DNA of 20,025 nt. Source: a virus. The stretch covers positions 1-20,025 of IMG/VR virus record IMGVR_UViG_3300033145_002632; one strand, given 5' to 3'. Both the position numbers and the translations under genes were made by a program. Positions 1 through 11,204 of the stretch are shown here, piece after piece (within the stretch, counting starts at the first letter, position 1; the number at the start of each line of letters is the position of its first letter). Below the pieces are notes generated by a model that saw only the letters and a program-made list of their open reading frames with translations, had not been told where the DNA came from and searched no databases.

Positions 1-533
1 TTGAATCCAGCTTCTTTCAATCTTTGAAAAAACATTTTTCTTTCTGAAAATAAAGGGACATTTGGTTCAAAAAATGTTTTTTCATTCGTGTTGGTAACAC
101 TTAATTGGAATGTATGTAAATTGGGATTTAGTGGGCAATCATAAGTACTTGCTGTTTTTGTAGAAAATAGAATATGTATTCCAAAACCATTTGTTATTTC
201 CAACATTGTTTTAGTATATTTGTATTTTCTTTCAAATATGGAGAAAGGATCAGCCATTCCACCACAATGCCATGTTATTTTATCTAATAATAAAACATCC
301 AAAACACTTTTTTCATTATAATCATTTTTTTCATATATTTTCTCCAATTTATTTTTAAAAGATTTAAAATTTATAACCCCCGTTTTATTTTGATTTTTAT
401 TTGGATTAAAACGATTTTTTGCAAAACAATAAACACAATTAAATGTACAATCGTAATAAGTATCTGCGCATAAAGGTAATCCACATATGGCAAATTTGGA
501 AGATACTGACAATATACCTGAAAGCCGTGTCAT
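1..533 (-). CDS. Radical SAM domain protein (partial, runs off window start)
   Basis: Reading leftward from an ATG at 533, the frame stays open for 177 codons to the window edge, so the C-terminal part is missing. Residues 29-36 read CTFNCVYC, the C-x3-C-x2-C motif that binds the [4Fe-4S] cluster in radical SAM enzymes; two more cysteines lie just upstream (17 and 22). These enzymes cleave S-adenosylmethionine to start radical chemistry on a substrate; the substrate here cannot be told. The ATG overlaps the helicase stop codon (ATGA on the minus strand), so it is probably translationally coupled to the helicase and made in the same transcript. Possible roles known for phage radical SAM proteins include base modification and spore-photoproduct-lyase-like repair, but neither is shown. 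The superfamily call is good; the specific function is unknown. Confidence 0.75.
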   Translation of the reverse strand, partial: MTRLSGILSVSSKFAICGLPLCADTYYDCTFNCVYCFAKNRFNPNKNQNKTGVINFKSFKNKLEKIYEKNDYNEKSVLDVLLLDKITWHCGGMADPFSIFERKYKYTKTMLEITNGFGIHILFSTKTASTYDCPLNPNLHTFQLSVTNTNEKTFFEPNVPLFSERKMFFQRLKEAGF

Positions 534-1897
534 TTTTTACTTTCCCTTTTTATTGGATATGAATATAAACAGAATTGACCTATTGCCAAACATTGTCCTA
601 TTACCTGTGGGTATCCCGTTTTTCCATTTCTATTGGCAAAACAACCTATGATTGCTTCTCCATGTGGCTCATATTCATCATTTGTGCCAATAAAAAATCC
701 TATATCAATATTACCAAACTTCCTTTTATCCTCAGCTAAATGCCTACCTTCTAATTTACCTTTCAAAATCATCGTTCGAATACCCTCATCATTCACCTGG
801 GACATCGTAACCATAACTAATTTTCTATCATCTGCAATTTTTTTCAAATAAATATAAGTGTCATTTATCGAATCCCTTGTTTGTTTACTTGAATCTATTG
901 GAGCCATTATATCAGCATAATCTGTTATACAGACATCAATTTTTATGTTTTCTATCGTTTCGACCTGCTCCAAAAATGAATCAAGTTTAGCTGGAGAACA
1001 AGAACCCATTGGATATTTTTGAACGATGAGCCTTCCTGAATAACGTTGGAATGTTTCCCTATTTTTCTTAACCAATTCTTTATTAAATACACTTTGCCAT
1101 TTCTTTCTTATTGTTTTTTTCTTTCCATCTTTGAATATTGAAACCTCCAATTCTTCTGGTTTTTCACTATGAGAAATTAACCCTCCAATCATCATATCAT
1201 ATCGGATAATAGTATCATCAAGTGAATTTTCATGACTAACGTGGACAACGTTCAAACCTTCTCGTAATGCTCTGTACGCAAGATAATGACCAAACCAAGA
1301 TTTACCCCCTTTGTAAATACCCGCAATAGCTATAAAATCAGTTCGTTTAATGAAAACACACTTATCGATATTTGGTATATTAAGTTTAAACAACCTTTCT
1401 GGTTTTTCTTTTCGCACAATTTCATCGGAGAAAAAATCTATCCCAATCTGTTGTGAATGAATACCTGCTTTTAACGTCTGCTGCATCAAAAACTGGGCTT
1501 CATCAAAATTACCATGTTCAACCAAATTGGCAAAATCAAAAGTAGCCTTGATATATGTTTTTGAACGGATAAAATCATTTAATCTTGATAAAATATATTC
1601 TTTATCGGGTTCAATTGTAAATCTTTCATTTAAATATTCCAAATACCGTGAAATGATATTAGATAATTCTGCATCAATGGTTTCGGTATATTTTATAAAT
1701 TCATCATGAAAATGGTTACCGGGAGCTTTTTTAAATTTATTATAATAATTACATACAATTTTATAAACCTCATAAATGTGTTTTACAGTAAAAAATTCCA
1801 TTGGTATTTGACCAACGATTAATTTGACAAAATCATCGTTGGTAATTGATAAATAGATCAAACTATCTTGTAGGTGTTCCGAGATTCTTTCTGTCAT
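530..1897 (-). CDS. DnaB-like replicative DNA helicase
   Basis: A 455-residue protein with a helical N-terminal region (about 1-160) and a RecA-fold C-terminal ATPase, the layout and length of DnaB/T4 gp41 helicases. Visible motifs are Walker A (GIYKGGKS, about residue 207), a Walker B strand ending in TDYADIM, the sensor-like TMSQVN, and a late ANRNGKTG segment where the arginine finger lies in the family. It should unwind DNA at the phage fork as a hexamer. I chose the ATG at 1897 (MTERISEH) because AAAAGGATAT lies just upstream of it; an in-frame ATG at 1924 has no such site and sits inside a hairpin. It is transcribed away from the other replication genes, from the symmetric promoter at 2052-2103. 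No primase domain is fused to it and no primase gene is in the window. Confidence 0.88.
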   Translation of the reverse strand: MTERISEHLQDSLIYLSITNDDFVKLIVGQIPMEFFTVKHIYEVYKIVCNYYNKFKKAPGNHFHDEFIKYTETIDAELSNIISRYLEYLNERFTIEPDKEYILSRLNDFIRSKTYIKATFDFANLVEHGNFDEAQFLMQQTLKAGIHSQQIGIDFFSDEIVRKEKPERLFKLNIPNIDKCVFIKRTDFIAIAGIYKGGKSWFGHYLAYRALREGLNVVHVSHENSLDDTIIRYDMMIGGLISHSEKPEELEVSIFKDGKKKTIRKKWQSVFNKELVKKNRETFQRYSGRLIVQKYPMGSCSPAKLDSFLEQVETIENIKIDVCITDYADIMAPIDSSKQTRDSINDTYIYLKKIADDRKLVMVTMSQVNDEGIRTMILKGKLEGRHLAEDKRKFGNIDIGFFIGTNDEYEPHGEAIIGCFANRNGKTGYPQVIGQCLAIGQFCLYSYPIKRESKK

Positions 1898-1945: not shown

Positions 1946-2052
1946 AATAAAAATATTTTATAAATAGTGAAAATTTCCATTGGTAAAATCATCGTTGGTA
2001 ATTGATAAATAGATCAAAAATAAAAATATTTTATAAATAGTGAAAATTTTCC
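1946..2052. repeat. AT-rich direct repeats flanking a copied helicase-gene segment
   Basis: A 33-base AT-rich sequence beginning AATAAAAATATTTTATAA occurs at 1946-1978 and again, with one extra T, at 2019-2052. Between them, 1985-2018 is an exact 34-base copy of 1829-1862, which lies inside the helicase gene. The 11 bases before the copy (1975-1985, TTCCATTGGTA) match 1796-1806, so the copy is a helicase-gene segment with about 22 bases removed. The arrangement looks like a local duplication. Being AT-rich, repeated and between divergent replication genes, it is also a candidate replication origin; that function is inference. Confidence 0.7.
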
Positions 2053-2103
2053 TTGCTTTTTAATAACAAACATAATATATTTTATTTCAGAACGAAAAGC
2101 AAG
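2052..2103. promoter_or_regulatory. Symmetric bidirectional promoter
   Basis: Plus strand: TTGCTT (2053-2058), 17 bases, TATATT (2076-2081). Minus strand: TTGCTT (2102-2097), 17 bases, TATATT (2079-2074). Both -10 elements share the palindrome AATATATT (2074-2081), and the outer arms CTTGCTTTT (2052-2060) and AAAAGCAAG (2095-2103) form a 9-bp inverted repeat with exactly the same centre. The elements fit sigma-70-type spacing. Rightward transcription would serve the block starting at 2146, leftward transcription the helicase. Since each -35 lies in the other promoter's start region, only one polymerase could bind at a time. A palindromic repressor site is an alternative or additional reading. 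Confidence 0.65.
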
Positions 2104-2145: not shown

Positions 2146-2349
2146 ATGAGGAAGCAAGGGGGTGTTTCAAAGATGGGAGTTGATAGCAAGAAATTTAAAA
2201 TTGCTCTAATTAAAGCAGGTATGTCTATGAAAGAATTTTGCAAATCACGAAACATAGAATATTCCGAATTTAATTTGGCGATTAATGGTTTTAGTAAAAT
2301 GAAAGAGAGTTCTGAAAAGGCTGTCAGAGATTTTCTTTCACAGAAATAA
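2146..2349 (+). CDS. Small helix-turn-helix-like protein
   Basis: A 67-residue basic protein starting after AAAAGGGGG. The central part (GMSMKEFCKSRNIEYSEF and the following helix) resembles the helix-turn-helix of small phage regulators: a short helix, a turn, and a recognition-like helix, ending in a helical segment with an FLSQ motif. It is the first gene after the symmetric promoter, a typical place for a regulator acting on that promoter or on an early switch. A second ATG at 2173 (MGVDSKKF) would give a 58-residue form but has a weaker upstream site. The DNA-binding role is inferred from pattern and position only. Confidence 0.55.
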   Translation: MRKQGGVSKMGVDSKKFKIALIKAGMSMKEFCKSRNIEYSEFNLAINGFSKMKESSEKAVRDFLSQK

Positions 2350-2378: not shown

Positions 2379-3152
2379 ATGAAAGTGGGGATTGAGGATG
2401 ATGTAATTGGCAGATCTGTATTTTTTGAGGTAAATGAGAAAGATGTTGAAAACGTCGAAGATATTGGAGAATATGAAGGGAAAATCATTTCTGTCACAGT
2501 CACTGGTACCTATTTTATTGAAGATATGAATGGAAATGAATGGGAATTAGCTGATGGTGAATTTTCCTTTGTTGATGAGGATGAAGATTCCGAAGGCGAA
2601 TTAAAGGATCAGGAACTTGAGGATGAATTGGAAGAAGAATCTGAAAATGAACTGGTAAATGAATTGGAAGAAAATAATACTCTTTCAGAGGAAATAAATA
2701 TCGATGAAATGGATTTTGTTCAACTGAAAGCATATATTAAGGAAAACAAAATTTCGGTTCCTTTTTTTGCTTATAAAAAAGAAGAAACCCTTCGCAAAGC
2801 AATTTTAAATGCCATTGGCATTGAGGAGGAACCAAAGAAATCCGAATCAAAGAAAAGCAAAGAAAAGGCAGTTTTACCTCCACGGAAGCCGCAACCTCAA
2901 GTAAAGAAGGAGCCATCTACTTCTCGATCCAGCAAAACAAAAAAGAAAACAGAAAAAAAGGAAAAAACAGAAAAAGTAAGGAAATTAACAAAATATGATA
3001 TTATAGCGGATATGATTCTTTTGGAAAAAACACAGGATGATATACTTGGAAAACTCGGTTCTGAATTTCCAAATGCCTCTGAGAAAGAGAATGCTTTTCA
3101 ACTCGGTAGGGCAGTACGTTTTGCAAAAAGACTTGGTATAAAAGTTAAATAA
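2379..3152 (+). CDS. Acidic/basic two-linker protein with SAP/Rho-N-like segment
   Basis: I do not recognise this 257-residue protein as a whole. Four parts can be seen. Residues 1-70 look beta-rich. Residues 70-105 are strongly acidic. Residues about 108-147 (from EMDFVQLKAYIKENKI to the LRKAILNAIG segment) resemble a SAP or Rho-N helix-extended-helix motif, which often binds nucleic acid. A Lys/Ser/Pro-rich basic linker follows at 150-195, then a helical C-terminal domain (about 198-257). AAAAGGAG precedes the ATG. It lies immediately before the sliding clamp, so a role in DNA replication or genome organisation is plausible. The long charged linkers suggest a flexible protein that tethers partners or DNA. 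Confidence 0.6.
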   Translation: MKVGIEDDVIGRSVFFEVNEKDVENVEDIGEYEGKIISVTVTGTYFIEDMNGNEWELADGEFSFVDEDEDSEGELKDQELEDELEEESENELVNELEENNTLSEEINIDEMDFVQLKAYIKENKISVPFFAYKKEETLRKAILNAIGIEEEPKKSESKKSKEKAVLPPRKPQPQVKKEPSTSRSSKTKKKTEKKEKTEKVRKLTKYDIIADMILLEKTQDDILGKLGSEFPNASEKENAFQLGRAVRFAKRLGIKVK

Positions 3153-4667: not shown

Positions 4668-7100
4668 ATGTCTTTTTTCTTTGACCCATCTGAAATTTCT
4701 GGTAAAAAGGCAACAAAAAAATCATTTATAGTTGATCCTTGCAAAATTTGTGGATTGTTCAAAGGTTGTATTTCACCAAAAATGAAATCATATGGTGGAA
4801 ATAAAAAGCGGATATTAGCTCTTGGGGAAGCTCCCGGCAAGGATGAGGATGAGTTTATTGATAAGGAAACGAAAGAAAAGGGACGTGGTTTCGTAGGCAA
4901 ATCCGGTAGACTTCTTACCTCAATTCTTGAGGATGTTGATATTGATTTTGATAAAGACTGTACTCGTAGCAATGTTTTACAATGCAGACCCCCCGGCAAT
5001 AAATTCCTGCCTGAAAAAGTTGAATATTGTTATCAGAGATTAGAAAAACAGATACAAGAATCAAAGCCAAAATTGATTCTTTGTCTTGGTTATGAAGCAA
5101 TAAAAAGAATAGCTGAAACTTCTATATTACCAACTACAATGGAAATTTTACATGGAATAGTATTTCCATCGAGAAAATATAACTGCTGGATTTCCTGTAA
5201 TTATCATCCTGCTTATATTCTTCGTAAACCGGGAATGGAAGATATTTTATATAGAGACATTAAAAATGCTTTGAGTTATTTAGATATGCCGATTTCGGAA
5301 TCACTTTTGGAGACTGGTGAAAATATAATATTAGAAGATAAGAATGATATTATTGGATTTCTTGAATCAATAACGAATATAAAGTCTGCTGTATCATTTG
5401 ATATTGAAACTTCTAAATTATCTCCATATGATAAAGACTCAGAATTGCTATCTATAGCGTTTTCATTTGATGAGAAAATTGGATATGTTTTTCTTCTAGA
5501 ACCAGTGGATAAGGATGTTTGGAAAGCTCTTGCACATTTTCTTGAATCTAAAACTCCAAAAATTTGCCATAGTGGCAAATTTGATGATTCCTGGGGTAAA
5601 GTCTTTTTCAAGAATTACATGAACAATCGGTACTGGGATACACAGTTGGCGGCTCATATACTCGATGAGCACCCTGATACCAAGTCTCTTGGATTCCAAA
5701 CATTCCTTACCACTGGTGATGAATATAAAGAAATGGTTAATCGGAAAAATATGAAAGAAGTATCAAAATCAATATTATGTAAATATAATTCATTAGATGC
5801 GAGATATACTTATTGTTTGTATAAAAAGCAAATAAAGCAGATTATAAAAGAAAACCTGTCTGATCCGAATAAATTTTTATTAGCTGGCGACAAGGCTCTT
5901 GCTCAATTGGAATTTAATGGAATAAAGATAGATAGGGATGCTTTTTATTACTATAAAGATGAAGTGGTTAATAAAAAATATAAAGAAGCAGTTCAATCTC
6001 TGCGGTCATCAGAATTAAATTCAATCTTTGCAAAAAAGAAAGGAAGGGATATAGATTTAAATTCACTGGTAGATTTAAAGTTCTTGTTTTTTAGGATGAT
6101 TAATGTTAAACCAGCATCTATAACAGAAAAAGGAAATCTACAACTAAATGAAGCATTTTTCAACCAATATTCTGATGACCCAGAGATTGGTGAATTCTGT
6201 TTAAATATGCTCGATTACAAATCAGTATTGAAAATGAAAACCACTTATATCAAAGCAATTGAAAATCATGTTGATGGCAATTGGTTTCTTCATCCAACTT
6301 ACAATTTATGGTCTACAGTTACTTATCGTTCAAGTTGTGATTCACCTAATTTACAAAACGTACCTAAACGGGATGAGGGGCAGGCAGAATTTAGAAAAGT
6401 ATTTATACCACGATTTGATTATTTACTTGATGCCGACCATAAAGGTTCTGAGGTAGTTATTCAAGCATTATTGGCAGATGATAGAACTTTAATTGAACAA
6501 TTGAAAAATGGGCTTGATCCACATAGATTCTGGGCAAGTAAATTATACCAAAAACCCGAAGAAAAAATTACAAAGAAATTACGATACAATGCAAAGAATG
6601 GTTTTATTTTCCCACTTATATATGGTAGTTACTATGTTACTATCGCAAAAAATTTAGGTTTGCCCGAAGATCATGTTAAAGAATGTGAGGATGAATTCTT
6701 TGACATGTATTGTGGGATTAATCAATATCAGCAAGAAAAGGTCCGGGAATATAATAAAAAGGGATATATAACAACACCACTTGGCTTTAGGCGACACGCT
6801 CCATTGTCGAGAAATCAAATTGTAAATTATCCAATTCAGTCTGTCTCGTTTCATTATTTACTTGATACATTAATAAAATTAGTTTCTTTGGTTATGCCGG
6901 ATTTAAAGATGAAAAGTTTACCTGTATTGCAAATACATGATAATGTTGTTTTTGATGTGGTGGAAAAGGAATTAGATGATTTGATTAATATTATTAATGA
7001 ATTAACTGAATATAAACCAAATTTCAAATTTGTAAAAGATTTAGCGATATCAGTAGAATATAATATAGGTAGAAATTGGTATGAAATGGAGGAATTATAA
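4668..7100 (+). CDS. Uracil-DNA glycosylase / 3'-5' exonuclease / family A DNA polymerase fusion
   Basis: An 810-residue replicative polymerase in three parts. Residues 25-205 match family 4 uracil-DNA glycosylase: four cysteines placed to bind an Fe-S cluster (C25, C28, C106, C121), GEAPGKDED (53-61), GFVGKSGRLL (74-83), CRPPGN (106-111) and NYHPAYILR (H180). Residues ~240-400 are a DnaQ-like proofreading exonuclease, with DIET (D245, E247), HSGKFDD, and the YNSLDARYT motif. The rest is a Pol I-type polymerase: motif A DADHKGSE (D588), O-helix R639-x3-K643-x2-F646 ending in YGS, and motif C IHDN (757-759). Motif C has Asn where Pol I has Glu (HDE), and motif A is less typical than DYSQIE, but both catalytic aspartates are present. 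There is no 5'-3' exonuclease domain. The stop overlaps the clamp-loader start. Confidence 0.9.
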   Translation: MSFFFDPSEISGKKATKKSFIVDPCKICGLFKGCISPKMKSYGGNKKRILALGEAPGKDEDEFIDKETKEKGRGFVGKSGRLLTSILEDVDIDFDKDCTRSNVLQCRPPGNKFLPEKVEYCYQRLEKQIQESKPKLILCLGYEAIKRIAETSILPTTMEILHGIVFPSRKYNCWISCNYHPAYILRKPGMEDILYRDIKNALSYLDMPISESLLETGENIILEDKNDIIGFLESITNIKSAVSFDIETSKLSPYDKDSELLSIAFSFDEKIGYVFLLEPVDKDVWKALAHFLESKTPKICHSGKFDDSWGKVFFKNYMNNRYWDTQLAAHILDEHPDTKSLGFQTFLTTGDEYKEMVNRKNMKEVSKSILCKYNSLDARYTYCLYKKQIKQIIKENLSDPNKFLLAGDKALAQLEFNGIKIDRDAFYYYKDEVVNKKYKEAVQSLRSSELNSIFAKKKGRDIDLNSLVDLKFLFFRMINVKPASITEKGNLQLNEAFFNQYSDDPEIGEFCLNMLDYKSVLKMKTTYIKAIENHVDGNWFLHPTYNLWSTVTYRSSCDSPNLQNVPKRDEGQAEFRKVFIPRFDYLLDADHKGSEVVIQALLADDRTLIEQLKNGLDPHRFWASKLYQKPEEKITKKLRYNAKNGFIFPLIYGSYYVTIAKNLGLPEDHVKECEDEFFDMYCGINQYQQEKVREYNKKGYITTPLGFRRHAPLSRNQIVNYPIQSVSFHYLLDTLIKLVSLVMPDLKMKSLPVLQIHDNVVFDVVEKELDDLINIINELTEYKPNFKFVKDLAISVEYNIGRNWYEMEEL

Positions 7101-8041
7101 TGTCGCTATATCATAAATTACGACCACAATCTTTAAATGGTTTATTTGGAAATAAAGAAACAGTAAAGAGTCTCAAAAAACTTCTTAAAATGGATAATCG
7201 TCCCCATACTTATTTATTTACAGGTGAAAGAGGAACCGGGAAAACTACTACAGCAAGAATATTAGTAAAGGAATTAGGTTGTTCTGATATTGATTTGGAA
7301 GAAATGAATGGAAGTGATAATAGAGGAATTGATGATGCCCGCCATGCTATTATGCTTGCTCATACATCTCCTATTGGTGGTAAATGTCGAGTTATTATAT
7401 ACGATGAATGCCATAGATGCACACGCGAGTGTCAGGATGCTTTATTGAAAGTGCTTGAGGATACTCCAAAAACAACCTATTTCATTTTATGCTCCACCAA
7501 TCCTGAAAAAATATTGAAAACAGTGAGAAGCAGATGTACAACTTATCATTTTGAATTATTATCAGAAGAATTAATGCAGGAGTTTCTTGAAAGTACTTTG
7601 GAAAATCTTGATAGAGATTTAGATGATACCGTATTTTTTGGATTGATTGATTGCACAGAAGGCAGCCCACGTGATGCTTTGGTATTGCTTGAACAGATTC
7701 TTTTGCTTGATAATAAAGATGAGCAAATCAAATTATTAAAGAAAACACAAATCGAACATGAGGGAATAGAAATTTGTCGTTTGTTACTGAGAGGGGGTAA
7801 TTGGAAAAGTATTGTGGAAATTTACAAAGGGATACAAGGAACTGATGCTGAAACCATACGGAGGTTAATTATTGGTTATATGAAAGTTGTAATGTTGAAG
7901 GAAACAGATAAGAAAAGGCTAAATAGAGCTTATAATGTAATAAGAATATTAGAAAAAAATACTTTTGATGGTGGAGAAGCTTTACTTCTTCGTATGCTTT
8001 ATGAATGTTCTGAGTTGTATGAATCCTGTTACCGGAGGTAA
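7100..8041 (+). CDS. Clamp loader ATPase, RFC/DnaX-like
   Basis: A 313-residue AAA+ protein that should open the sliding clamp and load it at primer ends. Motifs are Walker A GERGTGKT (42-49), Walker B IIYDECH (99-105), sensor 1 FILCSTN (128-134) and the SRC arginine-finger motif (144-146). Between Walker A and B it has EEMNGSDNRGIDDAR (67-81), the pattern of eukaryotic/archaeal RFC and T4 gp44, and it lacks the zinc-binding Cys cluster of bacterial DnaX, although the clamp upstream is of bacterial beta type. Translation is coupled to the polymerase: the start shares one base with its stop, and GGAGGAATTATA precedes it. Only one clamp-loader gene is seen, so the complex may be a homo-oligomer or use a partner encoded elsewhere. 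Confidence 0.88.
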   Translation: MSLYHKLRPQSLNGLFGNKETVKSLKKLLKMDNRPHTYLFTGERGTGKTTTARILVKELGCSDIDLEEMNGSDNRGIDDARHAIMLAHTSPIGGKCRVIIYDECHRCTRECQDALLKVLEDTPKTTYFILCSTNPEKILKTVRSRCTTYHFELLSEELMQEFLESTLENLDRDLDDTVFFGLIDCTEGSPRDALVLLEQILLLDNKDEQIKLLKKTQIEHEGIEICRLLLRGGNWKSIVEIYKGIQGTDAETIRRLIIGYMKVVMLKETDKKRLNRAYNVIRILEKNTFDGGEALLLRMLYECSELYESCYRR

Positions 8042-9664: not shown

Positions 9665-10183
9665 ATGGAAAAGAAATATGAACTGCTTGTTGATGATATG
9701 ATATATATTAATGGCATTATTTTATATCGAATACGAGCCTTGAAATCTTTTAAATATATCAAATCAGGGGATCTTGGTGGTTATGTAGAAAAAGAAAAAA
9801 ATCTTTCACATGACGGCAATGCATGGGTTTTTGATAGCGCAAGAGTTTATGGCGATGCAAGAGTTTATGGCAATGCAGAGATTTCTGGCAATGCATGGAT
9901 TTTTGGTAACACAAGGGTTTGTGGTAATGCAAAGGTTTCCGGTGATGCAGAGATTTTCGGCAATGCAAAGGTTTCTGGCGAAGCAGAGATTTTCGATGCA
10001 GAAATTTATGGTAATGCAGAGATTTCTGGCAACGCATGGGTTTTTGGTAATGCAAAGGTTTATGGTACTGCAAAAGTTTCCGACAACGCAGACATTTTTA
10101 ACAAAGCAGAGATTTATGGCAATGCAGAGATTTCCGGTGATGTGGAGATTTCCAGCAACACTGTGGTTTCTGGGAACGAGTGA
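9665..10183 (+). CDS. Beta-helix repeat protein (YdcK-like hexapeptide-type repeats)
   Basis: A 172-residue protein. Residues 1-45 (including YRIRALKSFKYIKSGDLGGY) match the leader found in YdcK-type and related phage proteins. The rest is about 20 short repeats of the form V/I-x-G-N/D-A (for example VYGNAEISGNAWIFGN), which fold as a left-handed or related parallel beta-helix. Such proteins lack a defined enzymatic role; some resemble acyltransferase beta-helices but no catalytic histidine is evident here. The DNA shows the underlying ~18-base tandem repeats, which can expand or shrink by slippage. It sits, unusually, between the UvsY-like gene and RecA, and a partial copy of the recA start precedes it, so it may be an insertion into the recombination operon. 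AGAGG precedes its ATG; the stop is 13 bases before recA. Confidence 0.8.
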   Translation: MEKKYELLVDDMIYINGIILYRIRALKSFKYIKSGDLGGYVEKEKNLSHDGNAWVFDSARVYGDARVYGNAEISGNAWIFGNTRVCGNAKVSGDAEIFGNAKVSGEAEIFDAEIYGNAEISGNAWVFGNAKVYGTAKVSDNADIFNKAEIYGNAEISGDVEISSNTVVSGNE

Positions 10184-10196
10184 GAAGGGTTATTAT

Positions 10197-11204
10197 ATGA
10201 ATCGAGTAATTAAAAACCCATCCCAACTGTTGGATATAAAAGAACTGCCTCCTGTATCAAATTATCTAAGTACGGGTTGCACAATTCTTGATTTAGCTAT
10301 TGCCGATAGATTGCCTGGGGGTTTTGGGGCTGGAAGAATATCCCATGTAATAGGATATGAATCTTCTGCAAAATCTATTCTTGCTCTGGAACCTCTTGGC
10401 TCAGCCCAAAGACAAGGAGGGTTCGCTTCATACATTGATGCTGAAATGACTCTGGATTTTCAAAGAGCATCCGATTTATTTGGCGTTGATGTTTCAAAAC
10501 TTAATTATATGCATGCTGGTAAGATAGAGGATTTAACTATTGGATATTTCTTTGATGAAATATTACCGGTGTTAGAGAAAGAAGCTTCTACTACAAAAAA
10601 ACCAAGTGTGTGTTCTATTGATAGCTTATCTGCAATCACAACTGAATTGGAATTAGAGGAAGCTACTGATAAAATGTCATATGGAACAAGGGCAAAATCG
10701 TTATCAAAAGGATTCAGAAAACATATATGGAAATTGAGCAAAGCTAATTTAGGGTTAATATTTATTGATCAGACTCGTCAAAATGTGGGTGTTTTATTTG
10801 GGAAAAAACATGTGGTTTCAGGAGGCGAGGCTTTGAAATTTTATGCTACCACGAGATTATTTGTGAAAAAAGTCTCTGATATTAAGAATAAACATGACAA
10901 AATAATTGGTATTAATGTTCATTTTAAAGTAGAGAAAAACAAACTTGCCCCACCATACAGGGAAGGTGAATTTAGTTTATTATTTGATTATGGAATAGAT
11001 GATATTGCTACGAATCTGATTTGGCTAAAAACTAATTTAGGATTGAAAGGAAAATACCAAATAGGGAATGATAGCTTTAAATCGCTTGATGCCGCTATTG
11101 CCTATATTGAGGACAATGAATTGGAGGCAGAATTACAGAATGAGGTTTATCAGTTATGGCAAGATATATATACAAAGGTTGAAAGGAAAGGAAGGATAAG
11201 ATAG
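10197..11204 (+). CDS. RecA/UvsX-family recombinase
   Basis: A 335-residue strand-exchange ATPase. Walker A is GYESSAKS (53-60), Walker B is in VCSIDSLSAI, and IFIDQTRQNVGVLFG followed by SGGEALKFYATTRL matches the L2 loop region and following strand of RecA (NQ-R-K-GV-FG ... GG-ALKFYAS-RL). In Walker A the usual GK is AK; T4 UvsX also lacks this glycine, so this is tolerated in phage recombinases. It should pair homologous DNA for recombination-dependent replication and repair, working with the ssDNA-binding protein and possibly the upstream helical protein. I start at 10197 because GAGAAGGG precedes it. The frame is open for 387 further bases upstream, but that is an out-of-frame reading of the beta-helix repeats and not part of this protein. 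Confidence 0.9.
   Translation: MNRVIKNPSQLLDIKELPPVSNYLSTGCTILDLAIADRLPGGFGAGRISHVIGYESSAKSILALEPLGSAQRQGGFASYIDAEMTLDFQRASDLFGVDVSKLNYMHAGKIEDLTIGYFFDEILPVLEKEASTTKKPSVCSIDSLSAITTELELEEATDKMSYGTRAKSLSKGFRKHIWKLSKANLGLIFIDQTRQNVGVLFGKKHVVSGGEALKFYATTRLFVKKVSDIKNKHDKIIGINVHFKVEKNKLAPPYREGEFSLLFDYGIDDIATNLIWLKTNLGLKGKYQIGNDSFKSLDAAIAYIEDNELEAELQNEVYQLWQDIYTKVERKGRIR

Follow-up and report, generated by a model that had tools for sequence, protein, structure and literature searches.

Two divergent groups of replication genes meet in the window, by which we mean the whole 20,025-nucleotide stretch analysed (positions 1 to 20,025 of IMG/VR virus record IMGVR_UViG_3300033145_002632; GC content 33.6%), and the intergenic region between them carries the mirror-image element considered here. 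The original prediction had placed a promoter site between the helicase gene and a block of replication genes, and matches of the gene products to known families confirmed this divergent layout, which comprises the following genes and elements.

3 to 533, minus strand: radical-SAM-like protein with a CTFNCVYC (CxxxCxxC) motif and a weak match to Pfam Radical_SAM (E=0.095); runs off the window
530 to 1897, minus strand: DnaB-like replicative helicase, the first leftward gene (phrog_19, E=4e-38)
1918 to 1945, no strand assigned: near-perfect palindrome GGGGCATATATTTTAATATATATGCCCC (13/14), GC-ended, upstream of the helicase ribosome-binding site
2044 to 2111, no strand assigned: imperfect dyad around both promoter candidates, about 68 bp, with 24/34 half-positions matching
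2053 to 2081, plus strand: rightward promoter candidate TTGCTT-17-TATATT, 8/12 consensus matches, predicted start at about 2088
2074 to 2102, minus strand: leftward promoter candidate TTGCTT-17-TATATT, 8/12 consensus matches, predicted start at about 2067
2146 to 2349, plus strand: small Cro/C1-like HTH protein, the first rightward gene (AlphaFold model and Foldseek)
2379 to 3152, plus strand: acidic protein, with counterparts at the same place in the related contigs L090 and L094
3168 to 4199, plus strand: sliding clamp (phrog_947, E=1.5e-37)
4668 to 7100, plus strand: fused UDG-like domain, 3'-5' exonuclease and family A DNA polymerase (Pfam PF03167, PF01612 and PF00476)
7100 to 8041, plus strand: clamp loader (phrog_5846, E=3e-59)

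The start of the helicase was taken as the ATG at 1897, which follows AAGGA. The UDG/exonuclease and the polymerase, a single fusion at 4668-7100 in the window, occupy two adjoining reading frames in L090 (1132-3572). Elsewhere in the window, a repetitive ORF with GNA-type repeats (9665-10183) runs in a different frame across the N-terminus listed for a RecA-like ORF (9810-11204), and the true RecA start probably lies further downstream than listed. The search for Rfam families and tRNAs returned none.

The identical TTGCTT-17-TATATT sequences that had been claimed for the two strands are exact, running from 2053 to 2081 on the plus strand and from 2102 to 2074 on the minus strand. Their -10 elements (2076-2081, plus; 2074-2079, minus) overlap by 4 bp within the common core AATATATT at 2074-2081, with the bases and coordinates as predicted, and the window thereby shows the opposed -10 elements, overlapping on two strands, by which bidirectional sigma70-type promoters are recognised. 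The perfect centring of the element, with -35 arms equidistant from one point, is likewise true in the sequence, but it is largely automatic, because both spacers are 17 and the -35 elements of such a pair fall at equal distances from the centre. The symmetry as a whole exceeds what had been claimed: the inner arms of the dyad, CTTGCTTTT at 2052-2060 and AAAAGCAAG at 2095-2103, stand 34 apart with AATATATT central, and outer AAATTT extends the dyad beyond these arms to its full length of about 68 bp. The stretch at 1946-2055 contains nested duplications, in which 1946-1982 and 2019-2055 are 95% identical copies of each other and helicase-coding 1824-1862 reappears at 1980-2018 with 95% identity; recent template switching or an assembly artefact may account for them.

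Taken alone, a 9-bp inverted repeat is unremarkable, as one with a loop of 3-60 nt appeared in 44% of shuffles of 1925-2145, and so is the core AATATATT, which occurs 4 times in the window with 2.2 expected. Overlapping opposed pairs, when found by consensus count, are at chance level (5 seen, 3.9 expected). No other dyad in the 20 kb window matches at as many half-positions as this one (24/34; the next best has 20), and shuffling reproduced that figure in 0.5% of cases over the whole window and in 0.2% locally. We also scored promoter-like sites with a weight matrix of approximate frequencies, of a sigma70 type that may not be that of the host. By this matrix, the two promoter candidates are the joint top sigma70-like sites in 1897-2146 (score 7.44), and more than 50 sites elsewhere in the window outscore them. 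The overlapping pair was beaten by 1.4% of local shuffles, i.e., it exceeds 98.6% of them, with p between 0.014 and 0.07 across most weight-matrix settings and between 0.05 and 0.07 when the two scores were summed; it goes unscored when the -10 elements may be offset by no more than 1 bp, and among all overlapping pairs in the window it ranks 2nd with local base composition and 5th with uniform composition. The significance of the pair thus varies with the scoring scheme, weight matrix as opposed to flat consensus counts. Each -35 hexamer, TTGCTT, matches the consensus at 3/6 positions, and as a result we would expect the promoter to be weak.

Searches with single proteins (helicase, clamp, polymerase and clamp loader) returned no relatives in viral contigs, the bacterial genomes searched contained no relative, and the intergenic DNA had no match in the phage collection. 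The relatives compared here are IMG/VR contigs reached through profile searches, namely L010, L090 and L091, with helicases 48-53% identical to that of the window, and L094 and L096, which were reached with a polymerase profile. The closest synteny-matched relative is L090 (helicase 53% identical), in which a leftward helicase gene diverges, as in the window, from rightward genes for the HTH protein, acidic protein, clamp, UDG/exonuclease, polymerase and clamp loader. Its intergenic region holds TTGACA-17-TATCTT directed toward the HTH gene and TTGTCT-17-TAAGAT directed toward the helicase, with -10 elements overlapping by 5 bp and implied starts 18 bp apart. This pair was first spotted in a promoter list and then tested, the same test being applied unchanged to all regions; 0.2% of shuffles reached it by weight matrix, and it ranks 2nd or 3rd in its 7.9-kb locus. 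The dyad and its palindromic arms are absent from L090. In L094, a leftward helicase gene faces away from genes for the acidic protein, clamp and polymerase, without the HTH gene, and only a weak, different pair is present, inside another palindrome, while the intergenic regions of L010 and L091 hold no comparable overlapping pair. In these sequence comparisons, the overlapping arrangement is supported by one relative, L090, and not by the others. L010 also has five 22-bp tandem repeats, ACATAAAGAAATTTAATGTCGT, at 5106-5214, beside a RepA_N/DnaD-like gene at 5257-5763. Two further matches were discarded. The exact CTTGCTTTT-34-AAAAGCAAG arrangement has only one other occurrence in IMG/VR, in L004, where it forms part of a gene for an unrelated helicase-like ATPase and is attributed to chance, and the 14-mer ATAATATATTTTAT common to the window and L090 was set aside with about 0.5 such matches expected by our own estimate for AT-only sequence.

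The palindrome at 1918-1945 recurs in L094 as CGGGCATATTAAAATATGCCCG (6824-6845), in the corresponding divergent intergenic region, as a single copy per record and with none expected by chance in the window. It is a better candidate than the dyad for an operator or a conserved binding site. Its identity as a terminator was rejected, since no T-run follows it on either strand in the window or in L094.

The small HTH-like protein at 2146, which had been named as a possible regulator, is plausibly of the Cro/C1 type by its predicted fold. The AlphaFold model of this 67-aa protein has four helices (pLDDT 80-81), and its best Foldseek matches were C.Esp1396I, C.BclI, 434 Cro and HipB, with probability near 1 and E ~0.1, consistent with a Cro/C1-family fold built of helices around an HTH. 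Its sequence had no match in Pfam or the PDB and weak HTH matches only among PHROGs. The counterpart in L090 matched the Pfam Cro/C1 family HTH_26 with an E of 0.002, which falls short of the cut-off, and because the two proteins are 23% identical and gave no BLASTP alignment, their kinship rests on position and fold.

We read the element as a putative sigma70-type bidirectional promoter between the replication operons that diverge in this unclassified tailed phage, and we give this reading an even chance of being correct. The original prediction of such a promoter gains from the divergent setting, from the two candidates outscoring every other promoter-like site between the operons, from their shuffle scores and from the analogous pair in L090, but doubts follow from the -35 elements with 3/6 matches, from the chance-level consensus count and from the other relatives, L010 and L091 having no comparable pair. 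The symmetric AT-rich -10 core, with a weak TTGCTT -35 on either side, would allow host RNA polymerase to bind in either orientation. A rightward transcript from the predicted start near 2088 would carry the genes for the HTH protein, acidic protein, clamp, UDG-PolA and clamp loader, and a leftward transcript from near 2067 those for the helicase and the radical SAM protein; the use of either promoter, like the positions of the starts, is inferred.

Bidirectional promoters are a common bacterial promoter type, and the window element is probably a further example of this known kind. In E. coli they yield 19% of detected RNAs (PMC12825309), and they are defined by divergent starts 7-25 bp apart (PMC10268837). 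The predicted starts of the window pair, calculated from the -10 positions, are 21 bp apart, inside this definition and not among the preferred separations of 10, 18 and 23 bp, of which 18 bp is the commonest (PMC12825309, PMC10268837). On the Salmonella chromosome, bidirectional promoters are biased to divergent intergenic regions. Like the bidirectional sigma70 promoters described in E. coli and Salmonella by Warman, Grainger and colleagues (PMC12825309, PMC10268837), the window element has overlapping opposed -10 elements and lies between divergent genes at a comparable predicted start distance of 21 bp. Unlike them, it has identical -35 hexamers and spacers on both sides, its symmetry reaches out to a 68-bp dyad, and it is phage-borne. 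A literature search on bidirectional promoters of lytic phages returned nothing directly relevant.

The element might instead be coincidental, AT-rich intergenic DNA having yielded a quasi-palindrome, possibly through local duplication or template switching, with the real promoters elsewhere. The chance level of the component features, the recent duplications that make up neighbouring 1946-2055 and the lack of conservation of the dyad arms in relatives would all fit, but the rarity of a 24/34 dyad (0.5% of whole-window shuffles), the independent overlapping pair in L090 and the need of the divergent genes for promoters in this region, where the window pair are the best candidates, make it unlikely. 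A dyad beyond chance would also suit an operator of the HTH protein, through which both operons would be repressed together or switched between, as by C-proteins and Cro. The Cro/C1-like predicted fold agrees with this, as do the position of the HTH gene, first in the rightward unit with its L090 counterpart in the same place, and the 43 bp between the centres of the dyad arms, which we reckon to be about four helical turns. The operators of Cro/C1 proteins, however, are palindromes as short as about 14-17 bp, and each dyad arm is asymmetric; the arms were not found in L090, and in L094 the genes still diverge although no HTH gene stands at that place, all of which leaves this use of the dyad distinctly improbable. 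The control regions of 434 Cro and C.Esp1396I resemble the window in having a small Cro/C1-type HTH gene beside a dyad-symmetric region, and differ from it in that no short repeated operators were recognised in the window and replication genes lie on both sides. Regulation of the promoter pair by the HTH protein is a conjecture, and its target could equally be the palindrome at 1918-1945.

About as doubtful is a reading of the intergenic region as a replication origin, in which an initiator would bind the dyad or the palindrome at 1918-1945, or either would extrude as a hairpin, and the promoter likeness would arise from AT-richness. The AT-rich position between replication operons, the several palindromes, the recurrence of one of them in L094, the TAACGGTA repeats in L090 and, at the equivalent place in L010, the repeats with a RepA_N/DnaD-like gene speak for it. 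Likely, the L010 repeats and gene constitute an iteron origin in a relative, and together the L010 and L090 repeats suggest that members of the group may also have an origin here. Although the window resembles iteron origins with RepA-like initiators in offering an intergenic site in a replication cluster, its intergenic region has no tandem iterons and no RepA-like gene was seen adjoining it, whereas L010 has both features. GC skew changes sign at the intergenic region, but a switch of coding strand explains this as well, and one region can hold both an origin and a promoter.

For the bidirectional promoter itself, the further proposal that occupancy balances the helicase against the rest of the replisome is unsupported, and the proposed switch through one palindrome-binding regulator is conjecture. 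In an E. coli study, the basal activity of 5/5 promoters tested was too low for polymerases to compete, and competition appeared only upon activation (PMC12825309). These published results speak against competition where promoters are as weak as that of the window would be, and it seems highly improbable that in this phage group a fully mirrored promoter sets the ratio of helicase to the other replisome components by mutually exclusive polymerase binding, tuned by a Cro-like protein made from one side.

If active, the bidirectional promoter would make expression of the replicative helicase, and that of the polymerase, clamp and clamp loader, depend on a common promoter, and it would offer a compact test case for bidirectional promoters coupling functionally linked genes. 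The same small control region contains a palindrome recurring in a relative, which may mark an operator or an origin.
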